Assembly (NCBI RefSeq): GCF_022179465.1
Contig: NZ_BPQV01000008.1
Location: 1-64,000, forward strand
Length of the DNA: 64,000 nucleotides
Direction of reading: 5' to 3'
Origin: Methylobacterium organophilum
Lineage (GTDB): Bacteria > Pseudomonadota > Alphaproteobacteria > Rhizobiales > Beijerinckiaceae
The notes under the pieces are model-generated. The model worked only from the letters and a program-made list of their open reading frames with translations. It did no database searches and was not told the origin of the DNA. Of the stretch, positions 5,523 to 38,548 are shown piece after piece. The position numbers were made by a program, and so were the translations under genes. The first letter of the stretch is position 1; the number at the start of each line of letters is the position of its first letter.

Positions 5523-5536
5523 CGTCGAACCGGAGC

Positions 5537-5565: not shown

Positions 5566-5715
5566 CGGTGCGGCGGGCCGCCTGCGGGATCGAAGGCCGC
5601 TCCCTTGGACGAACCGGTGCGGTTGAGCCAAGCCGCGCACCGGCTCCGACAGTATTTCCCCCTGAATAAACAGCACTCCCAAGTCCAATTCCCTTATGAG
5701 GGGCACGATATATCC

Positions 5716-13192: not shown

Positions 13193-14443
13193 TCAATCGA
13201 GGATTATTCGTTCCAGCCGCGGATTGCAGATCGATACCAAGTCGAATGTCTCGATGATGCTTTGGCGGCCAGCGGTTCGCAGGCGGTCGCTGTCGGCCCG
13301 GTCGGCGAGGGCGGCAATGGCGCGCTCGGCGAGCACGTCTGGCGCGAAGAAGGGGAAGACGAGCCCGTTCTCCCGATGGCGGAGGACCTCCCGGACCGGC
13401 GCGGTCTCGGAGGCAAGGACAAGGGCGCCCGCGCTCATCGCCTCGAGCATCGACCAGGAGAGCACGAAGGGATAGGTGGCGTAGACGTGGAGCGCGGCGA
13501 TCCGGAGGACCGCGAGATAGGCCTCGTAGGTCAGCCGGCCGACGAAATGGACGCGGGCGAGATCGAGCCGGGACCCGACCTCCCGGAGGAAGACGTCCTT
13601 CCAGGTCGATCCCTTGGGGGGGGCCGGCCCGTAGCCGCCAGCGGCATCACCGACGATAACCGCCCGGGCCTGCGGCCGGCGCGCGAGGATCTCGGGCAGG
13701 GCCCGCATGAAGACATGGTAGCCCCGGTAGGGCTCCAATGTCCGGTTGACGAAGGTCACGACCTCGTCGCCGGGCCCCAGCGTCAAGGTCCGGCCGGCTG
13801 CCGGGATCGTCAGGGTGAGCGTAGCGTCCGGGCGGGGGCTCACGAGGGCCGTGTCGATACCCTCGTGGGCAATCAGGATCTTCTCCCGCAGGCTAGGCGG
13901 AAAGGTCGAGGCCTGGAAGGCGGTGGGCGCGATGCCGAGATCGGCGTCGACGAGCGCCTGGGTCATCGCGGCGTTACGAGCGCGGACCCGGGCGCGCACC
14001 AGGGGATCTCCGTCGAGAGCGGGGGCGAATTCGGGATCGAAGTCCACGTCGCTGCCCTCCGCCGCGTAGTAGAACTCCGCGTGCAGGATCAGCCGCACCT
14101 TCGGCCAGACGTCGCGCACGAACAGGGTCTCGCCCCAGCCGCCATGGCCGACCACGATATCGGGCTCGTAGCCCGAGGCCTTGAGCGAAGCGAGGAAACG
14201 CGCCACGGCCAGCCCCCGGGCCGTCCGCTTGGCGAAATGCTCGGCCACCGGATGCTCGAAGAGAATAGGATCCGGGCGATGGGGGTAGGCGAGCGTGCGC
14301 ACGATCCGGGGCAGCGCGTTGCCCTCGCGCGTGACGGCGAGAACCTCGACGTCCGGCCGCCGGTCCAGCGCCTGAGCGACGTGCCGGAACTGGGCGGGGA
14401 AGTTCTGGTGGAGGAACAGAACCCGGTAGGGGCGGCGCGCCAT
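13193..14443 (-). CDS. GT-B glycosyltransferase, family 4-like
   Basis: A 416-residue GT-B glycosyltransferase. The N-terminal half begins with a Rossmann strand VLFLHQNFPAQFRH. The C-terminal half has the donor-binding region, including HVYATYPFVLSWSMLEAMSAGALVLAS with the E-x-x-A-x-G pattern of GT4 enzymes (about 335-360) and a preceding VHFVGRLTYEAYLAVL segment. It is the last gene of the minus-strand adhesin operon, 46 nt after the adhesin stop. It may glycosylate the adhesin in the cytoplasm before export, as glycosyltransferases beside other large adhesins do, or act on an exopolysaccharide. Acceptor and donor are unknown. Confidence 0.8.
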   Translation of the reverse strand: MARRPYRVLFLHQNFPAQFRHVAQALDRRPDVEVLAVTREGNALPRIVRTLAYPHRPDPILFEHPVAEHFAKRTARGLAVARFLASLKASGYEPDIVVGHGGWGETLFVRDVWPKVRLILHAEFYYAAEGSDVDFDPEFAPALDGDPLVRARVRARNAAMTQALVDADLGIAPTAFQASTFPPSLREKILIAHEGIDTALVSPRPDATLTLTIPAAGRTLTLGPGDEVVTFVNRTLEPYRGYHVFMRALPEILARRPQARAVIVGDAAGGYGPAPPKGSTWKDVFLREVGSRLDLARVHFVGRLTYEAYLAVLRIAALHVYATYPFVLSWSMLEAMSAGALVLASETAPVREVLRHRENGLVFPFFAPDVLAERAIAALADRADSDRLRTAGRQSIIETFDLVSICNPRLERIILD

Positions 14444-14489
14444 GGCCCGCTGCTCGCTGGATAAGTCCCGGCCTGCCGCCCCGATCCCG

Positions 14490-17400
14490 TCAGGCCACCT
14501 GCAGATGGATGTCGATCTGGGTGTTGTGATCGTCCATCATCTGGAAAACCTCGTAGGTGATGCCGTGCTCGACGGTCGTCGAATGAGTATCCGTCGCCCC
14601 CGAGAGCGTGACCGTATCGCTGCCGGTGCGATTGATGGTCAAGACGTTGCTCGCCGGGGCGAGGTCCGTCAGGATCGTGGAATCGATGGTTGCACTGCTG
14701 CCGCCTCCGAAATCGAGTTCCTCGACCCCCGAGATGCCGGTGAGGACCATGTTGCCGCTGCCGACGAAGTGCACGGCGTCGGAACCCGTACCCCCGTCGA
14801 TCGTGTCGGAGCCTGAGCCATCGACGTAGAAGACGTCGTTGCCTGCACCACCCGAGAGGAATCCTCCGCCGCCGCCCGTGAGGGTGTCGTTGCCGTCTCC
14901 ACCGGATAGGATGCTTCCCCCCGTACCCGTCAGCGCATCGTCATGCGTCGAGCCGACGACGTTCTGGATGTTGGTGAGCGTGTCCCCGGCCGCGTAGCCG
15001 CCGCTCGCGGTGCGGGCCGAGAGGTCGACTACGATGGCGGCGGTGGATTGGCTGAAGTCCACGGTATTCGTCCCGCTGCCGCCGTCGATGACATCGAGGC
15101 CGCCGCCGGCGACGAAGGTGTCGTTGCCCGCGCCGCCGGAGAGGAAGTTGATTCCGGCCCCGCCAGCGATCGTGTCGTTGCCGTCACCGCCATAGAGGTC
15201 GTTGTTCTCTGTCCCGCCCGTGAGCCGGTCGTCGTGGGATGAGCCGACGAGATGCTGGATGCCGGTGAGGGTGTCCCCCTGGGCGTATCCGCCTGAAGCC
15301 GAGCCGTTGGCGAGATTGATGTCGACCGCGGCGTCGGAACTGTGGAAGTCCGCCGTGCCCATGGCGTGGCCGGAAGCATCGAGCGTCTCGCCCGCTCCGC
15401 TCGCGGTGAGCGTGACCTGATCGCTCTCCTGGGCAACCTGCACGGTGATCCCGTAACTGTCCGTCAGGCCGTGGCTGTCGGTGGCCGTGAGCGTCAGCGC
15501 GTAGGAGGATCGGGCAGCGTGGTTGAGGGCGACGCCGGACTTGAGTTCGAGGGTGGTGCCGGAAATCTCGAAGAGGCTGGCATAGGCGCCGGAGAGAGAG
15601 ACCGCAACGCTGTCGCCGGCATCGGGATCGCTGGCCGTGAAACGCGTCACCGAAGCGCCGGCCTGTCCCTCGCCCACGCTCGGCGAGGTGGAGTTCGCAG
15701 TGACATGCGGCGCCTCGTTGACGTTGTCGACGGTGATCTGGAGCGCCTGGCTGGTGCTGGCATGGCCGTCCGAGGCCGCAACCGTCACCTTGTAGATGTT
15801 GTCATGGTCGGCGTCGGAGGGCTGCTCGTAGTCGGGTGACGCCTTGAAGGTGAGAGCGCCCGTCGAGGCGTCGATCGCGAACAGCCCCGCATCCGTGCCG
15901 CTGATGGAATAGGTCAGCGCCGTGCTGCCAGGATCCGTGGCCGTCACCGTGCCCGCAGCCGCCGTATTCTCCGCAACCGTGCGGCTGGCCGCCGAGGTGA
16001 TGGTCGGCGCCACATCCGCAACGGTGATCTGCACCGCCTGGGAGGTGGTGAGATGGCCGTCGGAAGCCACGACCGTCACCTCGTAGATGTTGTCGTGGTC
16101 GCTGTCCGAAGGATTGGTGTAGCTCGGCGCGGCCTTGAAGGTCAGGGCACCGGTCGAGGCATCGATGGCGAACAGCCCCGCATCCGTGCCACTGACGGAA
16201 TAGGTCAGCGCCGTGCTGCCGGGGTCGGTAGCGGTAACGGCACCAGCGCCGGTCTGGCCCTCGTTGACCGTGCGGCTTGCCGCCGAGGTAATGGTCGGCG
16301 CCACATCCGCAACGGTGATCTGCACCGCCTGCGTGGTGGTGAGACGACTGTCGGAGGCTGCGACCGTCACCTCGTAGATGTTGTCATGGTCTTTGTCGGA
16401 GGGACTGGTGTAGCTTGGCGCGTTCCTGAAGCTGAGGGCGCCGGTCGAGGCGTCGATGGTAAAGAGGTTGGCGTCCGCGCCTCCGCTGATCGAGAAGCCG
16501 ATTACGGAGGGGCCGCTGGGATCGGTGGCGGCGACGGTGGCGGCGGCCGTCTGGCCTTCGTTCATCGTGTGGGTCGCCGCCGAGGTCACGGTCGGCGCGA
16601 CATCGGAAACGTTGATCGTGACATCCTGGACGTGGGTCGACCCATCCGAAGCGGTCGCCGTCACCTGCACCATTCGCGTGGCGGCGACGGCGTAGGAGAG
16701 GCTCGCACCACTCGCCAGCACGAGATTGTTGCCGGAGAGCACGAACAAGGAAGCGTCGGCGCCACCAGTGATGGTGTAGGTCTGGGAGGACCCATCGCTC
16801 GACGCGAGAGTTGCAGCAGCGGTCCCCGAGGCGCTGCCCTCGGCGATGGTGTTTTGAGTGACAGCGATGCCCATGCCGGCAATGAGCTGGGCTGCCGTCA
16901 GCGTCCCGTCATCGAACTGGAACTTCTCGACATTCTTGACGGTGTCGGTCCCGTCGGGCCCCGCGATCGTATAGGTCACCGTCGAGAGGGCGTAGGTGAC
17001 AGTATAGGCCGAGCGATTCCCGGAATAGACGGCCGTGTCGGTTCCCATACCGCCGTCGATGATGTCGTTTCCGGCGCCGCCCGTGATGGTGTCGTCCCCG
17101 CCCGCGGTGGCATCGCCGATGACGCCAGAGCCCGGAACGTTGATGTTGTCGACGGCGAAGCTCTCATTGTTGCTGGCTTCGTTGAAATTGGCGCCGAAGC
17201 CGAGGGTCAGTACACCGTTCGAGGGCGTGGGCAGCGTGATGGTGAGTGAGATCTTGTTGTCGTTGCCGCTCCAATACGACGAATAGTTTCCCTGGGTCAG
17301 GTTCGCCGTGTAGGTTACGTCCGCAGCGCTCTGAAACGTGAGGTTCGAGAGACTCAAATTTCCCGACCAGCCGGTGCTGTTTGTCACCGTGAGAATCGCG

Positions 17401-20400
17401 GCACCATTCGCATAAATCCGGACGCCTTCTCCGCCATCGGCGGAATCGAGCACGTAGACGTCGAGACTTATCGTGGTCGTAGCAGTGGAAGGATCCGTGA
17501 GCTGGTAGCTCCTCGAAATCTGCTGCGCCCAGGTGCTGTTGTTGCCGCTTCCAGCAATGTTGCCCAGGACGGCGTTGCCGTCGAGGAGTTGCACGGTCGG
17601 GACGACACTTCCCCCAGCTGTCATCCAGCTGGAGTTCCCGGTGTCAAAGGTCTCGAGGCCAATCGATCCAAAGGAGTCCGCGTCACCGCTGATGAAGTCG
17701 TTGCCGATGCCGCCAACGATCATGTCGTTGCCGAGCCCGCCGATGACCCGGTCATTGCCGTCGCCGCCGTCGATGCGATCGTTACCGTAGCCGCCATCGA
17801 GCGTGTCGTCGCCGCCACCACCGGTGATGGAATCGTTGCCGCCCGCCTCCATCACGACGGCGTTGTCGAGCATGATCGAGCCGCCGTCTGACGAAGCGAG
17901 CTTGAACTCGACCTTGTCGCTGCCGGTGCCGGTGAAGAGGTAATCGAAGGTCTGCCAGGAGTTCGGGAAGGCACCGATTCCGACCGTGTCGATCTTCGTG
18001 CCGTTGACCAAGATACTGAGCTGCGCGGAATAGTTGGCGAGATTTCCGAGGTCGAACTGGACGAGATAGGTACGGCCGGCGGTGGTCGAGACCGTCTGCC
18101 AGACGTCCGTGGTCCCACCCATGAACATGCGCAGCGACTGGTTCTCCGCGGAGCCGCTGGCGAGATAGACGCTGTCGCTGATCTGGATCTGGTTGTTCGC
18201 GGTCTGCCAGCCGGTACCGACGTAGCCCGATCCCGTCGCGACGTTGCCGTTCGTGTAGCGGCCGGTGGAATAAGCCTCGAAGTTGCCGTTGGTGAGAAGG
18301 TTCTGGCCGTTCGCGACGGCCACCGCGTAGGTCGTCAGCTTGCCGAGGTCGTCATCGCCCCTGATCGTGTCGTTGCCGGCGCCGCCCGTGAGGGTGTCAT
18401 TGCCGGCGCCGCCCGTGAGCGTGGAGCCCGTATCCGTCGCCGTCAGCGTGTCGTGATAGGTCGAGCCGGTCACGCTCTCGATGGAGGTGAGGGTGTCGCC
18501 TTGGGCATCACCGCCACTTGCCGTCTGGTTGGCGAGGTTCACGGTCACCGCGGCGGCCGATGTGACGTAGGATGTCGTGTCCGTTCCGGCGCCCCCGTCG
18601 AGGATGTCGGCGCCTGCTCCCCCGACGAGCGTGTCGTCGCCCGCCCCGCCGATGAGCGTGTCGTCGCCCGCCCCGCCATCAAGGACGTTGGCGCCCCCAT
18701 CGCCCGTCAGCGTATCGGCGTAATCCGTTCCGGTGAGATTCTCGATCTGCGCGAGGGTATCGGTGACGAGGCCGGCGGATTCGAGCCCGCTCGCCTGGGT
18801 GGCAAGCTGCTTGATCTCCGACTGGGTCAGCGCCGTGTTGAAGACCGCGAAGTCATCGACCTGGCCATCGAGGAGATTGGCGGCGTTGGAGTCGCGGCCG
18901 AGATAGTTGCTGGTGAAGGTCCCGCCCGTCGGGAGGATGACCGCGCTGTCCGTATTCGAGGCCAGATCACCGTTGATGTAGAGGGAAAGCCGTCCCGCCT
19001 GATAGGTCACGGCGACGTTCATCCACTGATCGGCGACGATGTAGCTCGAGGAGGCGGCAACGCCCGCGATGCTCTGTCCGAGGGTCGTCGCCCCAGCGAG
19101 ATCGCCACGGATTTCGGCGTAGAGGTTTCCGTTGGATTGCTTCTGTAGGAACAGCCACTGATTGTTAGCGGTGCCGATCTTCCAGACGCCCTCTTGTACG
19201 CCGCTCGTCGGATTGTCGAAGTTCACCCAGGTGGAGATGGTGAAGCTGTCGCCGAGCGACAGCGTGCCGATGGTCGCCGTATCGTTGGAGCCGCGGCCCT
19301 TGAAATCGAGGGCCGAGCTGTGGTTCGTCGGGCCGGCGGTCCAGCTCGTCTGGCCGTTGAGCGCAATCGCGGTACCGGTGTTGATCGCCGTTGCCGTGGC
19401 GCCACTGCCCTCCAAGAAGCCCCAACCCGCGACGAGGCTCGCATTGGTGTAGGCCGTCGCCGCTCCTTGCGTACCGGCGTCGCCGCCATAGGCGATGCCG
19501 GTGGCGAGGTTCGCGGTCACGCCGGAGGAGGAACCGGCCCAGCTTGCCGTATCCGTGCCCGCGCCGCCGATCAGGGCGTCCGCTCCCGCGCCGCCCATCA
19601 GCGTGTCGTTGCCGCTTCCGCCGAAGAGGATGTCGTCGCCTGCACCGCCCTTGAGGACGTCGTTGCCGCCGCCGCCGTCGAGGGCGTTGGTACTGGAATC
19701 ACCGGCGAGATAGTCGCCGGTGCTCGAACCGACGAGGTTCTCGACGCCGGTGAACCAATCGCCCATGGCGTATCCGCCCCAGGCCCGCGTCGCGTTGGTG
19801 GTAGCCACGGCGAGATCGACGGTGACGCCGCCGCCCCAGAAGCTGCCCGAGAAGGTGACCGTGTCGATGCCGGCCCCGCCGTCGATCAGGCCATTGTTGC
19901 CGTTGTCATAGATGAGGTCGTTGCCGCTCCCCGCGTTGACCTGGATGCCGCCGTATTGAAGGTTGATGATGTCCGAGTAATTCGAGCCGACGATGACCTC
20001 GAAGCTCGACGTGACGTCGATGCCAGCGCCAACGGTGTTGTAGGACAATGCGTAGTTCGGCAGGAGCCGCACGGCGCTCGTTGCGCTCGCATAGCTGAGC
20101 GTATCGTTGCCGGCGCCTCCGTCGAGGGTATCGTTGCCCGCGCCACCTTCGATCGTGTCGCTGCCCGCTCCGCCACTGAGGGCGTTGGCGTTGGCATCGC
20201 CAGTCAGCACGTCGTTGTAACTGGAGCCGCTGAGGCTCTCGACGTTCGAGAGGCGGTCCCCCGCAGCATATCCTCCGGAGGCGGTCCCAGCGGCGAGATT
20301 CACCGTCACGGCGGCGTTGGACCAGGAATAGTCGACCGTATCGCTGCCGGCACCGCCATCGATCGTATCGGTCCCGGCACCGGCGATGACGGTGTCATTG

Positions 20401-23400
20401 CCGGTGCCGAGGGCGATCAAGCCTCCCGATCCATTGACATAGACGTAGTCGGCGAAGGCCGAACCGACGACATTCTGAATGTTCGTGTAGGTATCGCCCG
20501 TGGCGTAGCCGCTTGCCCCGGTTCCCGCGGCGGCATAGGCGCCGGCGGTAGAACCGACATTGACCGTCACCCCGACGGTGGACAGCGCGTAGTCGACCGT
20601 GTTCGTGCCGTTGCCGCCGTCGAGGGTGTCCGCCCCGGCACCGGCGACGAGGGTGTCGTTCCCGTCCCCACCCTGGAGGAAACTCCCGGCGCTGCCGGAC
20701 GCCGAGAGGATCGCGGTAAGCCTGTCGTCGTAGGCCGAGCCGATGATGTTCTCGACGTTGCTGAGGACGTCGCCATTGGCATCGCCCGTAGAGGTCTGCG
20801 CGGTGGCGAGCATCAGGTCCACCGTCACTCCGGTGGTAGAATTCGCGTACGACACCGTATCGGTGTCCGCGCCACCGTCGATCGTGTCCGCACCCGCACC
20901 GGAGATCAGCGTGTCATTGCCCGCCCCGCCCGCAAGAGCGCTGCCGGCAGCGAGCGCCGTCAGGCTGTCGGCAAAGGCAGAGCCGATGAGGTTCTCGATG
21001 TCGGTGAGGATATCGCCCGCGGCGTGGCCGGGGGAATTCTGCGCCGTCGCGAGATTGAGGTCGACGGTGACGCCTGCGGTGGAGGCCGCATAGGACGCGG
21101 TGTCCGATCCGGAGCCACCGTTGAGGGTGTCGTTGCCCGCGCCCGAAACCAGCGTGTCGTTGCCGGTACCGCCGGAGAGGACGCTGCCGTCCGAGCCGGC
21201 GGCAGAGACCAGCGCCGTCAGCGTGTCATCGTAGGCTGAACCCGTGAGGTTCTCGAAATTCGTCAGGACATCGCCGGACGCGTCGCCATTCGAGAGCTGT
21301 GCGGTGGTGAGGTTCAGGTCGACGATGACGCCTACCGCCGCGTTCGTGTAGGCGACCGTGTCGATGCCGGCGCCGCCATCGAGGGTGTCCGCCCCGCCGA
21401 GCCCCTCGATCGTGTCGTTGCCCGCACCACCCGAGAGGTCGTTCGCCGTCGCGTTGCCAGTGAGCGTGTCGTTATAGGACGAGCCCATGACCCGCTCGAT
21501 CGAGATCAGCGTGTCGCCCCGGGCGTAGCCGCCGGACGCCGCGCCCGTCGAGAGGTTGAGGGTCACGGCGGCGGTCGAATAGCTGTAATCGGCCAAGTCG
21601 CTGCCAGTGCCACCGTCGAGGGTGTCCGCGCCCGCTTTGGCGATGAGGGTGTCGTCCCCCGCCCCGCCCGTGAGCCGTCCTCCGTTCTCGTTCGCAGCGA
21701 GCACGTCGGCATAGGCCGAGCCGATGATGTTCTGGATGTTCAGGAGCGTGTCACCCTGGGCGTCGCCCTTGGTGCCGGTGCCCGCGGCGACGGTGACGCT
21801 GAAGGCTTGGATCGAGAAGGTGCCCGCGAGGTTGACGCCGACCCCGGCTGCGGAGGCCGAGTAGTCCGCGGTGTTCGACCCGGTGCCGCCGTCGAGGGTA
21901 TCCGCCCCGCCGAGGCCAGCGAGGGTGTCGTCCCCCGCCCCACCCTTGAGGAGGTTGGCATTGGCGTCGCCGGTGAGAACGTCGGCATAGGTCGAGCCGA
22001 CGATATTCTCGATCGAGACAAGGACGTCGCCGTCGGCATTGCCACCCGATCCCATCCCGGTGGAGAGGTTCACGGAGACGGCGAGGCCGGAGGCGGCATA
22101 GTCGGCGGTGTCGGTGCCCGCACCGCCGTCGAGGGTATCCGCGCCCCCGCCGCCGATCAGGGTGTCGTTGCCGGCGCCGCCGGAGAGGAGATTGGCGTTG
22201 CCGTCACCGATCAGACTGTCGTCGTAGGCCGAGCCGACGACGTTCTCGACGTCGAGGATCGTGTCGCCGTCCGCATCGCCGCCGACATTGATTCCCGTCG
22301 CGAGGTTGACCGTGATCGCGGCGCTCGAAGCCGCGTAGTCTGCCGTATCGATGCCGGCGCCGCCGTCGAGGGTGTCCGTCCCCGCGCCGCCCTTGAGGGT
22401 GTCGTTGCCGTCACCGCCTCTGAGAGCGCTTCCCGCCGCCGCGGCGACGAGGGTGTCGGCGAAGGCCGAGCCGATCACGCCCTCGATGGACATCAACGTG
22501 TCCCCGGCCGCGTCACCGCCGGAGCCGGTCCCCGCGGCGAGGCTAACCGTCACGGCTGTGGCGGAGGCGGAGTAGTCGGCAATATCCGTGCCCGCGCCAC
22601 CGTCGAGGGTATCGGCACCCGAACCACCCGCCAGAGTGTCGTTGCCGGCGCCGCCGGAGAGAAAGTTGGCGTGGGAATCGCCGGTCAGGCGGTCGGCAAA
22701 GGACGATCCCGTGAGGTCCTCGACGTTGAGCAGCACGTCGCCCGCAGCGTCGCCGCCGGAATTGAGGTTTGTCGCGAGATTCACGGTCACCCCGGTGGAG
22801 GAAGCCGCGTAGGTGGCGGTATCGGTACCGGCGCCGCCGTCGAGGGTGTCCGCCCCCGCACCACCCGCCAGGGTGTCGTTGCCGGTGCCGCCGGAGAGGA
22901 GGTTGGCGGTGGCGTCGCCGGTGAGGGTGTCCGCGTAGGCCGAACCGACGAGGTTCTCGATCAGGGTGAGGGTATCGCCCTGCGCGTAGCCCCCCGAGGC
23001 CGTCCCGGCCCCGAGACTCACCGTCACCGCGGCGGTCGAGGCCGAATAATCCGCGGTGTCCGTGCCCACGCCGCCGTCGAGGGTGTCGTTGCCGGCCCCC
23101 GAGACCAGGGTGTCGTTGCCGGTTTCGCCTTTCAGGAGGCTGCCCGAGGCGCCTCCGGAGCCGACGAGCGCGATCAAGCGGTCGTCATAGGCCGACCCGA
23201 GGACGGCTTGGAAGTTGGCGACGACATCCCCCGAAGCGTCGCCGGAGGAGACCTGGGCGGTGGTCAGGTTGAGGTCCACGGTCACGCCGGCCGTGGAGTT
23301 CGCATAGGAGAGGGTGTTCGTGCCGGTGCCGCCGTCCAGGGTGTCCGCCCCGCCGAGGCCTTCGATGGTGTCGTTGCCGGCGCCGCCGAGGATCGTGTTG

Positions 23401-26400: not shown

Positions 26401-29400
26401 GCGTACCCGCCCATTCCCTGCCCGGCGGCGAGATCGACCGTCACGCCGGAGGCGGAGGCGGTGTAGTCGACGGTGTCGGATCCCGTGCCGCCGTCGAGGG
26501 TATCGAGCCCCGCGCCGGCCACGAGGGTGTCGTCGCCGGCCCCGCCATACAGAGCGCTTCCTGCCGCGGCGGCGATGAACCGGTCGGCGAAGGCCGATCC
26601 GACGACGCTCTCGATCGAGATGAGCGTATCGCCCGCGGCGGCGGCGCCCGAAGCCGTTCCGGCGACGAGATCGACGATCAGGCCGGAGGTGGCGGCGGAG
26701 TAGTCCACCGTATCGCGTCCGGCGCCGCCGTCGAGGGTGTCGGCCCCGAGGCCGGCGACGAGAGTGTCGTCGCCCGCGCCACCGGAGAGGAGGCTGCCCG
26801 TGGTCCCGGCCGTGAGCCGGTCGGCGAAGGCCGAGCCGACCACGCTCTCGATGGAGACGAGGGTATCGCCCGCGGCATCCCCGCCGCTCGCGGAGCCGGC
26901 GGCGAGGTCGACCGTGACACCAGCCGAGGAGGCGGAATAGTCCGCGATGTCCCGGCCGCTGCCGCCGTCGAGGGTGTCGGCCCCGAGGCCCGCGACGAGG
27001 GTGTCGTCGCCCGCACCGCCGACGAGGAGGCTGCCGGGGACCCCGGCCGCGAGCCGGTCGGCGAAGGCCGATCCGAGGATGTTCTCGATGGAGACGAGGG
27101 TGTCGCCCTGCGCGTCCCCGCCGCCGACGATGCCCGTCGAGAGATCGACGGAGACACCGGCCGCCGAGGCGGAGTAGTCGGCGGTGTCGCGCCCGGCGCC
27201 ACCGTCGAGGGTATCGGCCCCCGCGCCGCCCACGAGGGTGTCGTTGCCCGCCCCGCCGGAGAGCAGGTTGGCGGCCGCATCGCCGATGAGCATGTCCGCA
27301 CCGGCCGAGCCGATCACGGATTCGATCCCGATCAGCCGGTCGCCCTGGGCGCTGCCGCCCGCGCCGGTCCCCCGGGCGAGGGAGACGCTGACCGCGTCGG
27401 CGGAGGCGGCGTAGTCGACGGTGTCGCTGCCGGTGCCGCCGTCGAGGATGTCGGCCCCGAGGCCGGCGACGAGGGTGTCGTCGCCCGCGCCGCCGGAGAG
27501 GCGGCTGCCGCCCTGCCCGGCGACGAGACGGTCGGCGAAGGCGGAGCCGACGGCGTTCTGGATGTTGACGAGGAGATCCCCCTGGGCGGCGCCCCCGGCG
27601 ACCGCCCCCGTGGCGAGATCGACGCGGACCGCGGCCGAGGAGGCGGAGTAGTCGGCGGTGTTCGTGTCGGCCCCGCCGTCGAGGGTGTCGGCCCCCGCCC
27701 CCGAGACGAGGGTGTCGTCCCCTGCCCCACCCTGGAGCAGGCTGCCCGTCGCGCCGGCGGTCAGCGTGTCGGCGAAGGCCGACCCGATCACGCCCTCGAT
27801 GGAGACGAGGGTGTCGCCCTCGGCATAGGCGCCGGCACCGAGGCCCGTCGCGAGGTTGACGGAGACCCCCGTGGTCGAGGCTGCGTAGTCGGCGATGTCC
27901 GTGCCCGCGCCGCCGTCGAGGGTGTCGTGCCCGGCGCCCGCGGCGAGGGTGTCGTCGCCGGCGCCGCCCTGCAGCAGGCTGCCGCTCGCGGAGGCCGTGA
28001 GGGCATCCGCGAAGGCGGAGCCGATGACGTTCTCGACCGAGGTCAGGAGGTCGCCCTGGGCGCTGCCGCCGCGGCCGAGGCCGAGGGCGAGATCGACGCT
28101 GACGGCCGCCGTGGAGGCGGAATAGTCGACGGTGTCGATCCCGACCCCGCCGTCGAGCGTGTCCGGCCCGAGCCCCGAAACCAGGGTGTCGTCGCCCGCC
28201 CCGCCCGCGAGGCCGCTCCCCGCCGCCCCGGAGGTCAGGAGGTCGCCGAAGGCCGAGCCGACGAGGTTCGTGATGCCGACGAGGACGTCGCCTGCGGCGT
28301 CGCCCCCCAAGCCCGTACCCGCTGCGAGATCGACGGTCACGGCAGCGGCGGAGGTGGCGTAGTCGGCCGTGTCGATGCCGCCGCCGCCTTCGAGGGTGTC
28401 CGCGCCGGCCCCGCCGATCAGCGTGTTGGCGCCGCCATCGCCGATCAGGTGATCGGCGGAGCGGCTTCCCTCCACGGATTGGAAGTTGGTGAAGCGGTCG
28501 CCGCGGGCGTATCCGCCGGCCGCCTCCCCGGTCGCGAGGTTGATCGTGACCCCCGCATTGGACGTCTCGTAGGAGAGCAGGTTCGTCCCGGCGCCGCCGT
28601 CCAGCGTGTCGGGCCCCGCCCCGGCGATCACCGTGTCGTCGCCGAGGCCCGCATCGACGGCGGTCCCGGGCGGGTTCGCCCAGAGCACGTAGACCGGGAG
28701 GCCGGTCACCGGATCCGTGTAGGCGGCGCTCGCCTCGTCGGTCACGTCGCGGACGGCGAACTGCACGGTGCCCGCGGTGGTGGTCGCGGTGTGCAGGCTG
28801 TCGCTCGCGATGTCGTAGTCCAGCTTGAGACTGAAGAACCCGTAGAACCCGTTGGCGTCCTTCTGCGTCAGGCCGTCCGGCAGGGTGTATTGCAGGTTGA
28901 GCGTGGTCGCCGACGGGTTCGCCGGATCGAAGGGGAGCGTGTAGACGCCGTTGACCGCCGTCACCCCGACGAGGCTCACCCCCGCCGGCAGATCGGAGAC
29001 GTGCACGCCCTTGATGACCCAATCCGTGTTGGGCATCGCGGTCGTGATCTGCACCGTGCGGGAGGTCGTCCCGACCCCGGCATAGGTCGGGTCGTCCGCG
29101 TGGATGACATCCGCGAAGGCGGTTCCCGTGATGGTGTCCGTCGCCGACTGGGCCGCGTAATGCGTGTCCGTGTCGGCGGGCGCCACGGTCAGGGCGCCGC
29201 CGATCTCCTCACCTCCGGCCGCGAGCGCCTTCGTCGCGACGCCGACGATCCCGAACAGCGCCGCCGTGATCTTCGGCGTCGGGATGTCGTACTGCCCGGC
29301 TCCGACCCCGGTCCCGTTGCCGACGTGGTCGGTATCGCCGGTCCCGGTATGGTCGCTGGTGCCGTTGTTGGTGAAATTGCTCGTGCCGGTGTTCGCGTAT

Positions 29401-30212
29401 TCGCTGGTGCCGTTATGGGCGTGATCGCTGGTGCCGGTGTTCGTGTAGTCGCTGGTGCCGTTGTTGGCGTGATCGCTGGTGCCGTTATGGGCGTGATCCG
29501 TGGTGCCGTTGCCCGAGCCGGTCTTGTCCCCGTCGGACGACGCGGTCGGGGGCGTCGTGTAGTCGCCGGTATGGGTGTTCTCGACGACCTTCTTCGACGA
29601 GGAACCGGGCGTGGCGTCGCTGGCAGGCGCGGCTTTCGCAGGCGGCAGCGGCGGAGCGGGAGGCGTGTCGTAGTCGCCGGTGTGGGTGTTGGCGGCTTGA
29701 ACGTTGTCGTTGCTCTTGGGCTTGGGCGGCTCGGCCTTCACCTCCACGACCGGCGACGCGGGGGGCTGGGGCGGAGGCGGCTCCTTTCCCGCCTCCTTCT
29801 GGGACAGGGTCTTGGGCGCCTCCTGCGAGCTCATGTTCGGGACGATCGGAACGTCCGACGCCACGAAGTTGCTCACCAGCGCGAGCAGCGACTGGGCATT
29901 GAGGGGCGCGCCGTTGACGGTGAGCGAGGCCGCGCTCTCGTTGAGAAGGCGCAGACCGAACTCGAGCAGCACCAGGGACGCGCCATCGGGGAAGGTGATG
30001 ACGAGATCGACGTCCCGCATCTCGACCTTCGCCCCTTCGAGGGGGAAGGTCAGCGCGATGCGCTGCCCTTCGACGGTCGGGACGATGTGGGTCTGCCCGC
30101 CCTCGGGCCGACCGACGCTCAGCACGCCGGCGCCGTTCGCGGGGCTCAGGCCCTCCTTCGGGGCCTCCGCCGTCGCGCTCTGCCCGCTGCCGTTGGAGGG
30201 TTCAGTTGCCAT
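14490..30212 (-). CDS. Giant RTX-repeat adhesin exported by type I secretion
   Basis: A 5240-residue acidic, Gly/Asp/Ala-rich surface protein without a Sec signal. Order: N-terminal region (about 30-115) resembling an adhesin retention module; a Pro-rich linker with two THTGDY motifs; eight octapeptide repeats (235-298); a LAAGG motif near 329; an array of about three dozen 79-residue RTX units (about 520-3575), each with GGAGDDTL and DTLDGG Ca2+-binding turns; a LamG-like lectin domain (about 3594-3809); more RTX turns; a DUF642-like jelly roll (about 3960-4124); another jelly-roll-like domain (about 4180-4364); cadherin-like domains (about 4447-4927); final RTX turns and a C-terminus ending DIHLQVA, suited to an uncleaved type I signal. 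The ABC, HlyD and TolC genes needed for its export are in the same locus. Likely role: Ca2+-dependent attachment to surfaces or glycans and biofilm. Confidence 0.93.
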   Translation of the reverse strand: MATEPSNGSGQSATAEAPKEGLSPANGAGVLSVGRPEGGQTHIVPTVEGQRIALTFPLEGAKVEMRDVDLVITFPDGASLVLLEFGLRLLNESAASLTVNGAPLNAQSLLALVSNFVASDVPIVPNMSSQEAPKTLSQKEAGKEPPPPQPPASPVVEVKAEPPKPKSNDNVQAANTHTGDYDTPPAPPLPPAKAAPASDATPGSSSKKVVENTHTGDYTTPPTASSDGDKTGSGNGTTDHAHNGTSDHANNGTSDYTNTGTSDHAHNGTSEYANTGTSNFTNNGTSDHTGTGDTDHVGNGTGVGAGQYDIPTPKITAALFGIVGVATKALAAGGEEIGGALTVAPADTDTHYAAQSATDTITGTAFADVIHADDPTYAGVGTTSRTVQITTAMPNTDWVIKGVHVSDLPAGVSLVGVTAVNGVYTLPFDPANPSATTLNLQYTLPDGLTQKDANGFYGFFSLKLDYDIASDSLHTATTTAGTVQFAVRDVTDEASAAYTDPVTGLPVYVLWANPPGTAVDAGLGDDTVIAGAGPDTLDGGAGTNLLSYETSNAGVTINLATGEAAGGYARGDRFTNFQSVEGSRSADHLIGDGGANTLIGGAGADTLEGGGGIDTADYATSAAAVTVDLAAGTGLGGDAAGDVLVGITNLVGSAFGDLLTSGAAGSGLAGGAGDDTLVSGLGPDTLDGGVGIDTVDYSASTAAVSVDLALGLGRGGSAQGDLLTSVENVIGSAFADALTASASGSLLQGGAGDDTLAAGAGHDTLDGGAGTDIADYAASTTGVSVNLATGLGAGAYAEGDTLVSIEGVIGSAFADTLTAGATGSLLQGGAGDDTLVSGAGADTLDGGADTNTADYSASSAAVRVDLATGAVAGGAAQGDLLVNIQNAVGSAFADRLVAGQGGSRLSGGAGDDTLVAGLGADILDGGTGSDTVDYAASADAVSVSLARGTGAGGSAQGDRLIGIESVIGSAGADMLIGDAAANLLSGGAGNDTLVGGAGADTLDGGAGRDTADYSASAAGVSVDLSTGIVGGGDAQGDTLVSIENILGSAFADRLAAGVPGSLLVGGAGDDTLVAGLGADTLDGGSGRDIADYSASSAGVTVDLAAGSASGGDAAGDTLVSIESVVGSAFADRLTAGTTGSLLSGGAGDDTLVAGLGADTLDGGAGRDTVDYSAATSGLIVDLVAGTASGAAAAGDTLISIESVVGSAFADRFIAAAAGSALYGGAGDDTLVAGAGLDTLDGGTGSDTVDYTASASGVTVDLAAGQGMGGYAQGDILVSIESAVGSAFADRLTAAAVGSALHGGAGDDTLVAGVGADLLDGGAGTDIVDYSGSSAGISVNLATGLVGGGSADGDTLLSIESVVGSAFADRLVAGATGSLLAGGAGDDTLVAGGGADTLDGGTGSDTVDYSASSAGVAVNLATGRGAGGDAQGDVLSNIETVIGSAYADTLTASAVGGALYAGLGDDTLVAGSGADSLDGGGGTDTVSYATSTAGVTVDLARATAQVSAGDAAGDILVSIEGVIGSAYADRLMAAAGGSTLKGGGGNDTLTAGIGADTLDGGAGSDTVDYSASTGAVRVDLATGQGSGGYAQGDVLASIENVTGSAFADRLIAAAAGSALQGGTGDDTLVAGMGADSLDGGAGNDTVDYSASTGAVSVDLATGQGSGGYAQGDLLTGIESVVGSAFADRLAAAAAGSALQGGAGEDTLVAGSGADSLDGGAGSDTVDYSASTGAVTVDLDARTASGGSAQGDSLVSIEGVIGSAFADTLTAAAAGSRLTGGAGDDTLVAGAGADMLDGGSGQDTADYSASAAAVGVNLATGQGTGGAAQGDTFVSIESVIGSAFADTLTAAATGSVLRAGAGDDTLVAGASADTLDGGSGRDTVDYSASSAAVGINLAAGTASGGFAQGDTLVSIENAVGSAYDDLLTAAAGGSSLSGSAGNDTLVAGAGIDSLDGGSGSDTVDYSASTAAVAVNLTATSQNSALGTVAAGAGLGGYADGDSYLGVENVVGSAFADTLYAGSTAGRLQGGAGNDTLAAGAGADTLDGGAGSDTASYAASTAGVSVNLATGFGSGGYAQGDVLVSIETVIGSAYADTLTASTGGSTLKGGAGNDTLVAGAGADSLDGGAGTNTVDYSASTAGVTVNLTTASQTGAFGTVAAGAGLGGHAAGDSYAGLQNVIGSAFADTLYAAAAGGSLQAGAGNDTLVAGAGADSLDGGAGTDVVSYALSNAAVTVNLATGAAAGGYAAGDGVLNVEGLTGSAYNDTLTGSAAANTILGGAGNDTIEGLGGADTLDGGTGTNTLSYANSTAGVTVDLNLTTAQVSSGDASGDVVANFQAVLGSAYDDRLIALVGSGGASGSLLKGETGNDTLVSGAGNDTLDGGVGTDTADYSASTAAVTVSLGAGTASGGYAQGDTLTLIENLVGSAYADTLTGDATANLLSGGTGNDTLAGGAGADTLDGGAGTDTATYAASSTGVTVNLATNLNSGGDAAGDVLLNVEDLTGSSFADRLTGDSHANFLSGGAGNDTLAGGSGADTLDGGAGTDIADYSASATAVTVSLAAGTGSGGDAAGDTLMSIEGVIGSAFADTLVAAAAGSALRGGDGNDTLKGGAGTDTLDGGAGIDTADYAASSAAITVNLATGINVGGDADGDTILDVENVVGSAYDDSLIGDGNANLLSGGAGNDTLIGGGGADTLDGGAGTDTADYAASGLAVSVNLSTGMGSGGNADGDVLVSIENIVGSTYADVLTGDANANLLKGGAGDDTLAGLGGADTLDGGTGSNTADYSASAAGVGVNLAGTFSIQAFSVTVAAGTGTKGDAQGDTLLNIQNIIGSAYADVLAANENGGRLTGGAGDDTLIAKAGADTLDGGTGSDLADYSYSTAAVTLNLSTGAASGGYARGDTLISIERVMGSSYNDTLTGNATANDLSGGAGNDTIEGLGGADTLDGGAGIDTVAYTNAAVGVIVDLNLTTAQLSNGDASGDVLTNFENLTGSAYDDTLTALVSAAGSDGSVLSGGTGNDTLVSGAGNDTLNGGSGSDTASYAASTAGVTVDLNLATAQNSPGHAAGDILTDIENLIGSAFADSLTALAAGSALAGGAGNDTLISGAGADTIDGGADTDTVSYANSTTGVTVDLMLATAQTSTGDANGDVLSNVENIIGSAYDDRLTAILSASGSAGSFLQGGDGNDTLVAGAGADTLDGGNGTNTVDYALSTVGVTVNVGSTAGAYAAAGTGASGYATGDTYTNIQNVVGSAFADYVYVNGSGGLIALGTGNDTVIAGAGTDTIDGGAGSDTVDYSWSNAAVTVNLAAGTASGGYAAGDRLSNVESLSGSSYNDVLTGDANANALSGGAGSDTIEGGAGNDTLDGGAGNDTLSYASATSAVRLLPNYALSYNTVGAGIDVTSSFEVIVGSNYSDIINLQYGGIQVNAGSGNDLIYDNGNNGLIDGGAGIDTVTFSGSFWGGGVTVDLAVATTNATRAWGGYAMGDWFTGVENLVGSSTGDYLAGDSSTNALDGGGGNDVLKGGAGDDILFGGSGNDTLMGGAGADALIGGAGTDTASWAGSSSGVTANLATGIAYGGDAGTQGAATAYTNASLVAGWGFLEGSGATATAINTGTAIALNGQTSWTAGPTNHSSALDFKGRGSNDTATIGTLSLGDSFTISTWVNFDNPTSGVQEGVWKIGTANNQWLFLQKQSNGNLYAEIRGDLAGATTLGQSIAGVAASSSYIVADQWMNVAVTYQAGRLSLYINGDLASNTDSAVILPTGGTFTSNYLGRDSNAANLLDGQVDDFAVFNTALTQSEIKQLATQASGLESAGLVTDTLAQIENLTGTDYADTLTGDGGANVLDGGAGDDTLIGGAGDDTLVGGAGADILDGGAGTDTTSYVTSAAAVTVNLANQTASGGDAQGDTLTSIESVTGSTYHDTLTATDTGSTLTGGAGNDTLTGGAGNDTIRGDDDLGKLTTYAVAVANGQNLLTNGNFEAYSTGRYTNGNVATGSGYVGTGWQTANNQIQISDSVYLASGSAENQSLRMFMGGTTDVWQTVSTTAGRTYLVQFDLGNLANYSAQLSILVNGTKIDTVGIGAFPNSWQTFDYLFTGTGSDKVEFKLASSDGGSIMLDNAVVMEAGGNDSITGGGGDDTLDGGYGNDRIDGGDGNDRVIGGLGNDMIVGGIGNDFISGDADSFGSIGLETFDTGNSSWMTAGGSVVPTVQLLDGNAVLGNIAGSGNNSTWAQQISRSYQLTDPSTATTTISLDVYVLDSADGGEGVRIYANGAAILTVTNSTGWSGNLSLSNLTFQSAADVTYTANLTQGNYSSYWSGNDNKISLTITLPTPSNGVLTLGFGANFNEASNNESFAVDNINVPGSGVIGDATAGGDDTITGGAGNDIIDGGMGTDTAVYSGNRSAYTVTYALSTVTYTIAGPDGTDTVKNVEKFQFDDGTLTAAQLIAGMGIAVTQNTIAEGSASGTAAATLASSDGSSQTYTITGGADASLFVLSGNNLVLASGASLSYAVAATRMVQVTATASDGSTHVQDVTINVSDVAPTVTSAATHTMNEGQTAAATVAATDPSGPSVIGFSISGGADANLFTIDASTGALSFRNAPSYTSPSDKDHDNIYEVTVAASDSRLTTTQAVQITVADVAPTITSAASRTVNEGQTGAGAVTATDPGSTALTYSVSGTDAGLFAIDASTGALTFKAAPSYTNPSDSDHDNIYEVTVVASDGHLTTSQAVQITVADVAPTITSAASRTVAENTAAAGTVTATDPGSTALTYSISGTDAGLFAIDASTGALTFKASPDYEQPSDADHDNIYKVTVAASDGHASTSQALQITVDNVNEAPHVTANSTSPSVGEGQAGASVTRFTASDPDAGDSVAVSLSGAYASLFEISGTTLELKSGVALNHAARSSYALTLTATDSHGLTDSYGITVQVAQESDQVTLTASGAGETLDASGHAMGTADFHSSDAAVDINLANGSASGGYAQGDTLTGIQHLVGSSHDDRLTGGTENNDLYGGDGNDTIAGGAGINFLSGGAGNDTFVAGGGLDVIDGGSGTNTVDFSQSTAAIVVDLSARTASGGYAAGDTLTNIQNVVGSTHDDALTGTGGSILSGGDGNDTLTGGGGGFLSGGAGNDVFYVDGSGSDTIDGGTGSDAVHFVGSGNMVLTGISGVEELDFGGGSSATIDSTILTDLAPASNVLTINRTGSDTVTLSGATDTHSTTVEHGITYEVFQMMDDHNTQIDIHLQVA
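19490..28650 (-). repeat. 237-bp tandem repeat array coding 79-residue RTX units
   Basis: Roughly 36 units, most exactly 237 bp long, encode repeats of the form GGAGDDTL-VAGAGADTLDGG-x-DTVDYSAS, then a VTVDLATG-x-GGYAQGD strand and a GSAFADTL block. Some units have inserts (extra GSGGASGS-type segments or longer strands). Regularity is highest between about 24.3 and 28.4 kb, where neighbouring units differ at few positions, and decays towards the protein C-terminus. The array is a likely site for unequal recombination and for assembly collapse. Confidence 0.9.
29319..29510 (-). repeat. Eight 24-bp repeats coding octapeptides NGTSDHAN-like
   Basis: Eight consecutive 24-nt units encode variants of [N/T]-G-T-[S/T]-[D/E/N]-[H/Y/F]-[A/T]-[H/N] at adhesin residues 235-298. 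The last unit is degenerate (TGDTDHVG). Every unit carries a G-T-S/T or related hydroxyl cluster, and several contain N-x-T/S sequons (for example NGT). The tract lies in the flexible linker before the repeat array. Confidence 0.85.
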
Positions 30213-30269
30213 GTCGCGTCAGGCCTTCGAAAGCACGCTCCACCCCATGGACGTGGCGGGAGAACCCGC

Positions 30270-30632
30270 TCAAGCCATGGCGTCCGATTTCGAGAACTCA
30301 AGAATATTCTCAAGGTCTTCCCGCCCAAGGATCGACTTGAGGCGCAGACCGTAACCGTATTCGGTTGTATTCATGAGAGCGGCTTCCAGACTGAAGGGTC
30401 CGAACTCCACCAGAACGTCGTCTCCTCCTCTTCTGCGGAGGAGGTAAGTCAGCGCGGGGCGCACGCGCAGGCCGCCCGCCGAGACTTCGTTCACCACCCC
30501 GTCGATGGAGAAGCCACGCTCGACGAACAGGATTTTCCCGCGGATCATGCAGGGAAACCGCTCGTGCACCCGGCGCGCGCGACCGCTGAACCGCCCGAAG
30601 GCCCGGGAGAGGCTCGGCACCGTGGCGATCAT
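30270..30632 (-). CDS. PilZ-domain protein
   Basis: A 120-residue single-domain PilZ protein. The c-di-GMP-binding N-terminal motif RVHER (RxxxR, about residues 21-25) is intact. The second motif reads EVSAGG, where the consensus is [D/N]xSxxG, so Glu replaces the usual Asp/Asn and binding may be altered. The start ATG overlaps the stop of the MotA-like gene (ATGA), and the gene ends 57 nt before the giant adhesin. The coupling suggests that c-di-GMP acts directly on the proton channel/export apparatus or on adhesin synthesis. That is inferred from gene order. Confidence 0.8.
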   Translation of the reverse strand: MIATVPSLSRAFGRFSGRARRVHERFPCMIRGKILFVERGFSIDGVVNEVSAGGLRVRPALTYLLRRRGGDDVLVEFGPFSLEAALMNTTEYGYGLRLKSILGREDLENILEFSKSDAMA

Positions 30633-32173: not shown

Positions 32174-32268
32174 CGATCTGTCCCATGCGCGCGAGCGAGA
32201 AGCCGCCGTTCTAGGGCCCCCGAGTCAACATGGCGTTAAAAGTCTAGATCCAGACAGTTTTCGTCCGC

Positions 32269-33189: not shown

Positions 33190-33196
33190 GACGCCC

Positions 33197-35272: not shown

Positions 35273-35371
35273 GTGAGCCTTTGCAGTCTTAGTCCGGGCT
35301 AGACTGGTAAACGGGCATGCTTAGCTGTCGATTAACAAAGCCGGAGCATAAGGAGCTATCGCATAACGGGG
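35273..35371. promoter_or_regulatory. Divergent promoter region of the secretion locus
   Basis: 99 bp separate the ABC gene (minus) from the HlyD gene (plus). It contains GTCTTAGTCCGGGCTAGAC, a gapped dyad (GTCTTAG / CTAGAC), and a short TTAACAAAG stretch. Both transcripts of the locus must start here or upstream, so the site would coordinate adhesin and translocon expression. No regulator gene is adjacent. Confidence 0.4.
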
Positions 35372-36691: not shown

Positions 36692-37048
36692 TCGAAGGAG
36701 CGGCCCAAGGTCCGGAATCGCCTGGCCGGGCCACGTCGCCCGTGGCCGAAGGGTCCCGGACGAGCGGTCCCCTCGCGCGATGCGCCGCCCGATCGAGAAC
36801 GTGGCGGCCTAGCGTGGCCCTTATGTCAGTCACCACGCGCTGCCTCAGCATTTGCAACTGCTCGTAGAAGCCCTGTTCCGAAATTTGGACAAGACCCCGC
36901 CAATATTACATCCTACGATTTCATTTTTCAGACTTGAACCACAGGATAGAACCCGGCGACCTTCAGTCTTGGCGGAGCGACACGATAAATTTAACTATAT
37001 GTTAAGGATAAGAAACCGTTAAATGCCCGGATCAACCGGGGTCCAGGA
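36692..37048 (+). promoter_or_regulatory. Intergenic region between HlyD and TolC-like genes
   Basis: 357 bp with no gene. It holds a GC hairpin GGCCACG/CGTGGCC (36729-36735 and 36741-36747) shortly after the HlyD stop and an AT-rich block (about 36890-37020) with the small dyad TTAAC-tatat-GTTAA. The AT-rich block probably carries a separate promoter for the TolC-like gene. Confidence 0.4.
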
Positions 37049-38548
37049 ATGTTCGGTCGCAGGCGGCTCATCGCGAAAAGACTTTTTGCGATCGCGCTGC
37101 TGTCGCTCTCCACCGCCGGCTGCGTCAGCCAGCGTGCCGCTCCGTGCGTCGGGACGGAAGACTACCCCGTTCCCTCGAATCTCTGCCGCGAATTCCCGAC
37201 GGCGACGATCCTCCCGCCCCCGTCCGAGACCGCGGAGCCTTCGCCGGCGGCCGACGGGAGCGGCCGCCCCGGCAAGGGAAAGGCCGGCGACACGGCGGTG
37301 GGGCCGAAGCCGGCCAAACAGGGAAGCCTGACGGTCCCCGAGACCGTCCGGCTGCTCATCCGGGAGAACCCCGACATCGGCATCGCCGCGGCCCGCGAGA
37401 AGGAGGCCTTCGCCGCCATCGACGGCGCCCGCGCCAGCCTCCTGCCCTCGGTCGACCTCTCCACGGCCGTCGGGCCGCAGCGGAACTGGGAGACGCACCC
37501 TGCCGGCAACGCGATCCGGCGCGAGGCGGGCGTCAGCATCCGGCAGAGCGTCTACGATTTCGGCGCGGCGGCGAGCAACATCGAGAGGGCGGCCCTCTCC
37601 TACGACAGCAGCACCAAGGCCCGCATCGCCAAGACGGAGCAGACGGTGTTCGACATGCTCGATCTTCTGATGAAGGTCGAGCAGATCGATGAGAACATCC
37701 ATCTTACCAAGAGGAACATCAAGGCGCACGAGACGATCCTCGACATCATCAAGACGAACGAGTCGAACGGCAACTCCACGGTCGCCGACATCAAGCGGGT
37801 GACCACACGCCTTGATGCGGCCCGCACGGCACTGATCGACCTCGTGACGGACCGGACCAACGCGGCCGATGCGTTCCGGCGCCTGACGGCGATGGACGTC
37901 GATCGGATCGCCGACACGGTGACCCCCCGGTTGAAGGACGACGTGATGGCCCTGGACGACGGCCAGCTCGATCGGAACCCCGAGATCCTCGCGATCCAGT
38001 ACGAGATCTCGTCGCTCCGGGAGCAGCTCCACGCGGCCGAGCTCGGCCTGATGCCGAATGTCGGCATCGAGGCCGGCTGGCGGGTCGGTCGGCAGATGAC
38101 CGAGCCGGACACGACTATCGATCGCCGCATGTACGGGAACGTCCTCCTGTCCATCCGGATGCCGATTCTGGACGGCGGCGCGAATACGAGCCTGCGCCAG
38201 CAGATCGCCGCCCGCCTCGAAGCCGCGACCCTCAAGCTCGACAAGCGTCGTCGCGAATTGCGCGAGGACGCACAGGGCGCCTCGCGCATCACGTCATCCG
38301 ATCAGGACAAGTCCGGAACGCTCGCCTCGCGGGTGGCTGCGGCCCGCAAAGTCCAGGATCTCTCCCTGGAGCAGTTCAGGAACGGCGGCCGGACCGTCTT
38401 CGAGCTGCTCGACAGCCAAGTCGATCTCGTGAAGGCGGAGCAAGATCTGATCGCCCAAACCTACGCCCGACGCCGGGCGCAGATCCGGTTCCTGCTCCTG
38501 AACGGCACCCTCGTCAGCCGAATCCTCTCCTCGAAGACGTCCATCTAG
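37049..38548 (+). CDS. TolC-family outer-membrane factor of type I secretion
   Basis: A 499-residue TolC-like protein with a lipoprotein-type leader (LLSLSTAGC, Cys at about 25). A disordered Pro/Gly/Lys-rich stretch (about 50-90) precedes two long helical repeats (TVPETVRLLIRENPDIGIA, about 94; the second repeat begins near LDRNPEILAIQ, about 308). A RQSVYDFGAAASN strand and a MPILDGGANTSLR strand mark the two beta elements, as in AggA/TolC proteins. It completes the trans-envelope channel for the adhesin. Cys acylation would be unusual for TolC but is seen in LapE/OprM-like relatives. Confidence 0.88.
   Translation: MFGRRRLIAKRLFAIALLSLSTAGCVSQRAAPCVGTEDYPVPSNLCREFPTATILPPPSETAEPSPAADGSGRPGKGKAGDTAVGPKPAKQGSLTVPETVRLLIRENPDIGIAAAREKEAFAAIDGARASLLPSVDLSTAVGPQRNWETHPAGNAIRREAGVSIRQSVYDFGAAASNIERAALSYDSSTKARIAKTEQTVFDMLDLLMKVEQIDENIHLTKRNIKAHETILDIIKTNESNGNSTVADIKRVTTRLDAARTALIDLVTDRTNAADAFRRLTAMDVDRIADTVTPRLKDDVMALDDGQLDRNPEILAIQYEISSLREQLHAAELGLMPNVGIEAGWRVGRQMTEPDTTIDRRMYGNVLLSIRMPILDGGANTSLRQQIAARLEAATLKLDKRRRELREDAQGASRITSSDQDKSGTLASRVAAARKVQDLSLEQFRNGGRTVFELLDSQVDLVKAEQDLIAQTYARRRAQIRFLLLNGTLVSRILSSKTSI

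Follow-up and report, generated by a model that had tools for sequence, protein, structure and literature searches.

The first 64,000 nucleotides of contig NZ_BPQV01000008.1 from Methylobacterium organophilum (assembly GCF_022179465.1; genome size 5.06 Mb), referred to here as the window, contain between positions 13193 and 38548 a locus that encodes a giant adhesin and its export machinery. An ABC transporter, HlyD and TolC stand beside the gene of a large RTX-type substrate, which makes the locus a type I secretion system (T1SS). The same locus encodes a MotA/MotB-like (MotAB-like) pair, a PilZ protein and a glycosyltransferase. An earlier note, made from the sequence alone, had named eight genes in this interval, and the open reading frame (ORF) coordinates and profile matches reproduce its positions (Table 1). 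On the minus strand the genes are transcribed in the order ABC, MotB-like, MotA-like, PilZ, adhesin and glycosyltransferase with intergenic gaps of 7, 95, -4, 57 and 46 bp, the negative value denoting an ATGA in which the PilZ start codon overlaps the stop codon of the MotA-like gene; HlyD and TolC follow on the plus strand. The 99-bp region between the two divergent groups may, judging from its position, hold promoters.

Table 1. Features of the adhesin secretion locus in the window (positions 1 to 64,000).
Feature	Position	Strand	Evidence
Glycosyltransferase, family-4, 416 aa	13193..14443	-	Pfam Glyco_trans_4_3 174.8 bits, with Glycos_transf_1
Giant RTX adhesin, 5240 aa, presumed T1SS substrate	14490..30212	-	RTX, LamG-like and cadherin-like domains; conserved N- and C-terminal regions
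PilZ protein, 120 aa	30270..30632	-	Pfam PilZ 20.1 bits; RVHER and EVSAGG motifs; model
MotA/ExbB-like motor subunit, 514 aa	30629..32173	-	MotA_ExbB 19.8 bits; hydropathy; clade support 100/100
MotB/SiiA-like subunit, 306 aa	32269..33189	-	OmpA 21.9 bits; PRK09039-type N-terminus 6e-7; model
T1SS ABC transporter, LssB/HlyB type, 691 aa	33197..35272	-	TIGR03375 533 bits; ABC_tran 103 bits
Divergent intergenic region, 99 bp, between the ABC-motor-PilZ-adhesin genes and hlyD-tolC	35273..35371	.	coordinates
HlyD-type membrane fusion protein, 439 aa	35372..36691	+	TIGR01843 331.8 bits, above cut-off
TolC-type outer-membrane channel, 499 aa	37049..38548	+	OEP 145.3 bits; TIGR01844 153.2 bits

The ABC transporter and the TolC-type protein exceed their Pfam cut-offs (ABC_tran and OEP) and remain below those of TIGR03375 (533 against 693 bits) and TIGR01844 (153 against 225 bits). 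Scored as single proteins, three others fall short of the Pfam gathering scores, namely PilZ (20.1 against 22.5), MotA_ExbB (19.8 against 22.9, rising to 23.8 bits with frame neighbours) and OmpA (21.9 against 27.2), and the names given to them in the earlier note therefore needed proof. The identity of PilZ and of the OmpA-like domain is settled by family-level sequence evidence together with predicted structures. The PilZ protein is modelled with a PilZ fold (predicted local distance difference test score 81) whose closest matches are PilZ domains, including those of YcgR and MotI. For the MotB-like protein, one transmembrane helix with Asp16 (WAGFVDVLS), a disordered linker at about 64-205 and an OmpA-like domain at 206-306 are predicted, and the model of the periplasmic domain has SiiA (6qvp) among its best folds, tied with many OmpA-like domains. 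Hydropathy places hydrophobic segments of the MotA-like protein near residues 22-40, 43-65, 163-181 and 221-239, followed by a long predicted coiled-coil tail. In the PDB sequence set, the MotA profile matched coiled-coil and designed-bundle proteins through this tail and no motor protein among the best 60 of 76 matches, and the PilZ and MotB profiles gave no clear match there. Coordinates, profiles and models thus bear out the proposal that a MotAB-like pair and a PilZ gene share one operon with an RTX-type adhesin.

The earlier note had suggested looking for MotA-like, MotB-like and PilZ triples beside T1SS adhesins in other genomes; searches with the MotA-like protein alone yielded 27 distinct loci including the window, counted after dropping L209 and L210, which lie on the same contigs as others. 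Only one pair among them exceeds 90% identity (L037 and L076, 97% in MotA). As the MotA-like protein was the sole basis of selection, the presence of PilZ, T1SS and RTX genes around it counts as independent evidence. The gene order ABC-MotB-MotA-PilZ is kept in the module and missing at paralogue loci. In all 25 assessable module loci the gene immediately after MotA is PilZ (the contigs of L080 and L082 stop within MotA), an arrangement seen at none of the 71 loci that carry the nearest MotA paralogue. The ABC gene is present in 23 of the 27 loci; the contigs of L077 and L214 are cut, and none was found in the 21 and 34 kb scanned at L078 and L218. HlyD is opposite in strand to ABC wherever both are seen. 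A giant RTX gene occurs in 16 of the 27, mostly adjoining HlyD, TolC or PilZ (about 7.5 kb from HlyD in G669), and TolC in four (window, L039, L075 and L215); nine of the 11 loci with no RTX gene seen are cut on at least one side. The same profiles found no PilZ, HlyD, TolC or RTX gene at the 71 housekeeping MotA loci (five of them under 8 kb). Similarly, PilZ was seen in none of 29 further class-search loci of about 3.5 kb each, and in the short stretches around three (G137, G253 and G259) of the four class-search matches reaching far into the N-terminus, the fourth being in G144, there was no PilZ gene and a MotB-like ORF stood after MotA.

Among 60 relatives searched, the 36 genomes of the same genus gave weak, paralogue-level matches to the MotA-like protein (best 6.5e-25), and strong matches came from three other families of the order. 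In all three, HlyD, ABC, MotB and MotA are arranged alike and PilZ is present; two have an RTX giant and the third locus ends with its contig. Across the order, 19 of 397 genomes matched the module MotA profile at E <= 6.1e-114, the next match lying at 2.4e-54 (at most three candidates scored per genome). In a class sample the window genome stood alone among 385 at E <= 1e-57, and in a phylum sample of 398 genomes only the window genome and, at 1.6e-104, G1022, from another order of the same class, stood out, the others matching at 3e-49 or more weakly. An alignment-based contig scan, counted over its best 80 loci, added nine module loci (L075-L083) and supplied the 71 paralogue controls, whereas a scan with the single window protein as query gave no match. 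The nine belong to Chthonobacter albigriseus (L075), a member of the same order as the window genome, and to metagenome-assembled genomes (MAGs) labelled Hyphomicrobiales, Aquisalinus, Sphingomonadales and Alphaproteobacteria. As to a plasmid origin, none of 72,556 plasmid records matched the MotA-like protein at E 1e-15, and no insertion site is demonstrable because the downstream flank is itself poorly conserved within the genus.

The PilZ gene follows the motor genes closely. Of 288 genomes of the order searched with a profile of the module PilZ (E <= 1e-10; up to 14 candidates per genome), 16 gave a match, a single one each and always at the module locus, and in the order searches the PilZ and MotA profiles select the same genomes. 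In a tree, the 27 module MotA-like proteins fall on one side of a branch with 100/100 support and 22 housekeeping MotA proteins on the other (the latter hand-picked, flagellar MotA not included, L094 flagged as a long branch). Pairwise distances correlate between PilZ and MotA (r 0.91), MotA and MotB (0.88), ABC and HlyD (0.90), MotA and ABC (0.77) and, at the lowest, MotB and ABC (0.71), none being reached in 2000 permutations each. Collectively, the tree and the context counts support the view that the MotAB-like pair, PilZ and the T1SS adhesin form one conserved module apart from housekeeping MotA, and to this extent the interpretation in the earlier note is supported. A separate observation from the housekeeping set concerns L102, a Mesoflavibacter MAG (ih5) record labelled Bacteroidota, whose housekeeping MotA groups with Aestuariispiraceae and which is probably mislabelled or contaminated.

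The MotB-like proteins of the module have a signature of their own. The canonical OmpA-type motif of MotB-type subunits is GH(T/A)D with LSxxRA. GH(T/A)D is present in none of 25 module MotB-like ORFs against 63 of 78 housekeeping MotB ORFs (with a laxer pattern, two of 25 against 65 of 78), and an LSxxRA-type motif in none of the 25; R..[YF][YF]R....R, on the other hand, occurs in all 25 and in none of the 78. The transmembrane Asp is found in 24 of the 25, and in the remaining case it is on the other half of a split ORF. At L205:10947-11915 the MotB-like gene lies in two ORFs, by mutation or assembly error.

The adhesin frames are very long, running from 5240 to at least 8959 residues (the longest cut at an edge) in the six module adhesins whose N-terminus was reached. 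The 5240-residue window protein contains no cysteine. Its residues 3001-5240 hold 15 RTX-repeat stretches above threshold and four cadherin stretches, together with a laminin-G-like lectin domain, and match DUF642 below threshold; residues 1-520 have no Pfam or NCBIfam match. The scan, which covered 2760 of the 5240 residues (1-520 and 3001-5240), revealed no BIg domain, residues 521-3000 being read as RTX repeats. The six N-termini (window, G570, G602, G047, G057 and G1022) align over a block with D-V-D and F-x-D-G and, beyond a variable linker, over another conserved stretch. This shared region is the best candidate for a part held in the channel. The C-terminal ends reached among the module adhesins are similar by eye, and on this likeness a C-terminal export signal is presumed. 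Directly after the adhesin gene of the window, at 46 bp, stands that of the glycosyltransferase, relatives of which occur in L219 (G1022), 28 bp past the end of the RTX gene, and in L078, next to MotB, so that it is present in three of 27 module loci including the window and in none of 71 control loci. It appears to be an occasional accessory and may act on the adhesin or on the surface.

As for the PilZ protein, the first motif, RxxxR (RVHER in the window), is in register in 22 of 25 module proteins, counts being read by eye off the alignment and the L040 protein being cut at the end of its stretch; in L081, L083 and L204 it is out of register or incomplete. Binding of cyclic diguanylate (c-di-GMP) by the PilZ protein is likely, but the second motif for it, canonically (D/N)xSxxG, mostly reads ExSxxG. 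The clade of L081, L083 and L204, with L080, keeps the PilZ gene where seen, its c-di-GMP motifs having decayed, and L204 has no RTX gene in 36 kb downstream. At L040:15071-18487 (G057), on the opposite strand between the MotB- and MotA-like genes, there is a 1138-residue AmtB-like protein running on into PAS, GGDEF and EAL regions, as read by eye and by motif, a probable c-di-GMP enzyme inside the module. A scan for GGDEF/EAL motifs near 25 loci returned this gene and one L213 ORF, which overlaps hlyD and was judged spurious.

On balance, the locus probably encodes a T1SS for a giant RTX adhesin that has its own proton-driven, SiiAB-type motor and a dedicated PilZ regulator setting how much adhesin is retained and displayed. 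The HlyB-type ABC protein, HlyD and TolC would export the adhesin C-terminus first, leaving its conserved N-terminal region in the channel as an anchor. The MotA-like and MotB-like proteins would assemble a 5:2 motor; the family of pentamer:dimer motors is listed as including SiiAB and ZorAB (PMC12204202; this and the other PMC articles are cited from excerpts). The motor would draw on the proton-motive force to control whether the anchored adhesin is retained or released, as proposed for SiiAB. PilZ, made by translation coupled to MotA, would dock on the cytoplasmic face of the MotA-like protein, in the way that MotI, FlgZ and YcgR bind flagellar stators (PMC8203827), and tune motor activity up or down according to c-di-GMP. 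As a result, c-di-GMP and membrane energy would together determine adhesin display, with no part for LapD. A more mechanical version is possible though rather doubtful: PilZ would be a clutch on a 5:2 proton motor that applies force to the channel-held adhesin, tightening, releasing or moving it as c-di-GMP or membrane energy dictates, which would make a third c-di-GMP route to adhesion beside LapD and transcription.

Several findings weigh against the PilZ-regulated retention motor. In the nearest studied case, deletion of SiiA/SiiB reduced invasion and did not stop SiiE secretion (PMC12607715), so the role of such motors is unsettled. GH(T/A)D is missing from the MotB-like protein in 25 of 25, and anchoring may therefore differ from that of MotB. 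The second PilZ motif has E (17), S (4) or D (1) at the canonical D/N position in 22 proteins (EVSAGG in the window), and L081, L083 and L204, of one clade, lack it and still keep the gene. L080 and L081 carry other genes past HlyD and no RTX gene on the flank seen. The distance correlations are uncorrected for species descent. Three module genomes (G701, G742 and G750) are absent from the PilZ-profile matches, though they may have lain outside the 288-genome sample.

In the strongest alternative, PilZ serves the MotA-like protein in structure or assembly and has lost, or never had, the ability to read c-di-GMP, the motor being controlled by membrane energy only, as in SPI-4 (Salmonella pathogenicity island 4). 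The gene is present in every assessable locus, even in the three of one clade with decayed ligand motifs, and E or S replaces the canonical D/N in 21 of 22. However, 22 of 25 proteins retain RxxxR along with the S..G of the second motif, which is hard to explain without a ligand, and L219, from the module genome with the lowest score, carries the canonical D. This alternative is judged a minority possibility.

A second alternative has the motor help to drive export, by drawing a very long chain through the channel or clearing it from there, and has no role for it in holding or releasing the finished adhesin. The great length of the frames and the tie of the MotA-MotB-PilZ trio to T1SS genes would fit. 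However, ABC transport is ATP-driven and the export of many giant RTX adhesins involves no motor of this type, which counts against an export motor. SiiE secretion was intact in the SiiA/SiiB deletion (PMC12607715), and this explanation seems unlikely. That the motor moves the anchored adhesin for surface movement or force sensing is more improbable still. GldLM moves SprB, and here too motor-type genes accompany a giant adhesin and the MotA-like protein has a long tail; yet nothing links the motor to movement, gliding genes not having been looked for. Finally, a chance presence at the locus of a flagellar stator, a housekeeping MotA/PRK09039-type pair or a Zorya defence system is scarcely tenable as an account of the pair and was rejected: relatives of the MotA-like protein are found in 60 of 61 genomes searched and it has distant ZorA matches (8e-9), but it belongs to a clade separate from the 22 housekeeping MotA proteins (flagellar MotA not in the tree), the window genome has five further MotA_ExbB matches, the PilZ/T1SS/RTX context is conserved in the module and seen at none of the 71 paralogue loci, and ZorB matches, among the four window proteins scanned, are weak and confined to the N-terminus.

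A regulated retention motor of this kind would matter beyond the window. The way in which a MotAB-like motor serves adhesin display in SPI-4 has been called unclear (PMC12607715), and the 27 distinct module loci, which lie in other bacteria and bring a regulatory handle of their own, make the effect of proton-motive force on retention versus export testable. The module similarly makes testable whether PilZ can gate a non-flagellar motor. If c-di-GMP is the ligand, it would explain adhesion control without LapD in this group, and the recurrence in distantly related bacteria suggests that motor power and an internal signal decide when a cell sticks. The earlier note knew of no description of such a combination, and none of PilZ, a MotAB-like pair and a T1SS adhesin was found among the papers listed from the open-licence PMC literature, as judged by titles and the starts of abstracts. 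The parts are of known kinds; within this search, nothing describes them joined in a dedicated module that recurs.

Among known systems, Zorya ZorAB shares the long-tailed MotA-like protein and a distant ZorA score (ZorA3 at 7e-8). It differs in that ZorB is matched only at E 0.01-0.04 and in that the context of the module is adhesin export (four window proteins scanned). The closest sequence relatives of the pair are the alphaproteobacterial housekeeping MotA and PRK09039-type MotB, a likely source of the module pair by sequence; there MotB follows MotA in 66 of 69 controls, whereas the module order is reversed.

With the PilZ regulators of flagellar stators (MotI/DgrA, FlgZ, YcgR and MotL) the module shares a PilZ gene adjoining motor genes and a fold near those of MotI and YcgR. 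MotL is a PilZ-only protein encoded directly after motAB, though no contact between it and MotAB could be demonstrated (PMC8203827). The module differs in that the partner is not a flagellar stator, the motif is ExSxxG and not DhSxxG, and there is no YcgR-type N-terminal domain.

The LapA/LapD/LapG system shares a giant T1SS adhesin and the proposed c-di-GMP input, but control in the module would be cytoplasmic, through PilZ and the motor. A LapG-type peptidase family, matched in 19 of the 20 module genomes scanned, is uninformative as a discriminator because only module genomes of the order were scanned; a peptidase step may form part of adhesin control. LapD_MoxY_N matches occur in two of the 20, the window genome (one over and one below the cut-off) and G570 (two). 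The over-cut-off match of the window genome is not LapD but a MoxY-like histidine kinase, which lies at L220:4236-5723, 4.2 kb past the window end, and is followed by a gene that reads like a LuxR-type response regulator. Another locus of the window genome, L221 (G000:C2:383000-393000, at 3874-6209, minus strand), carries two LapG-like peptidase genes beside that of a 208-residue protein with two PilZ matches, a possible second PilZ/adhesin-processing cluster as read from its genes.

The closest comparison is with Salmonella SPI-4 (SiiABCDEF), where a T1SS for a giant adhesin is likewise encoded with a Mot/Exb/Tol-type pair; the SPI-4 likeness drawn in the earlier note holds for this architecture, on the gene set, and for the SiiA-like periplasmic fold in the MotB-like model, a fold that many OmpA-like domains match equally well. 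SiiA itself gave no sequence match to the module MotB-like protein in the PDB set. A pair of arginines five apart is shared, R261/R266 being invariant in the module and R162/R167 being required for peptidoglycan binding in SiiA (PMC12607715). SiiA and SiiB form a proton channel, and a raised proton-motive force increased, and an uncoupler decreased, SiiE retention (PMC6272769). SPI-4 lacks the PilZ of the module and is found in other bacteria, SiiE is built of BIg repeats whereas the adhesin of the module is of the RTX type and carries cadherin and LamG domains, and the glycosyltransferase of three module loci is a further difference. The module is thus distinct from SPI-4, by its RTX substrate and added PilZ, and from LapA/LapD.

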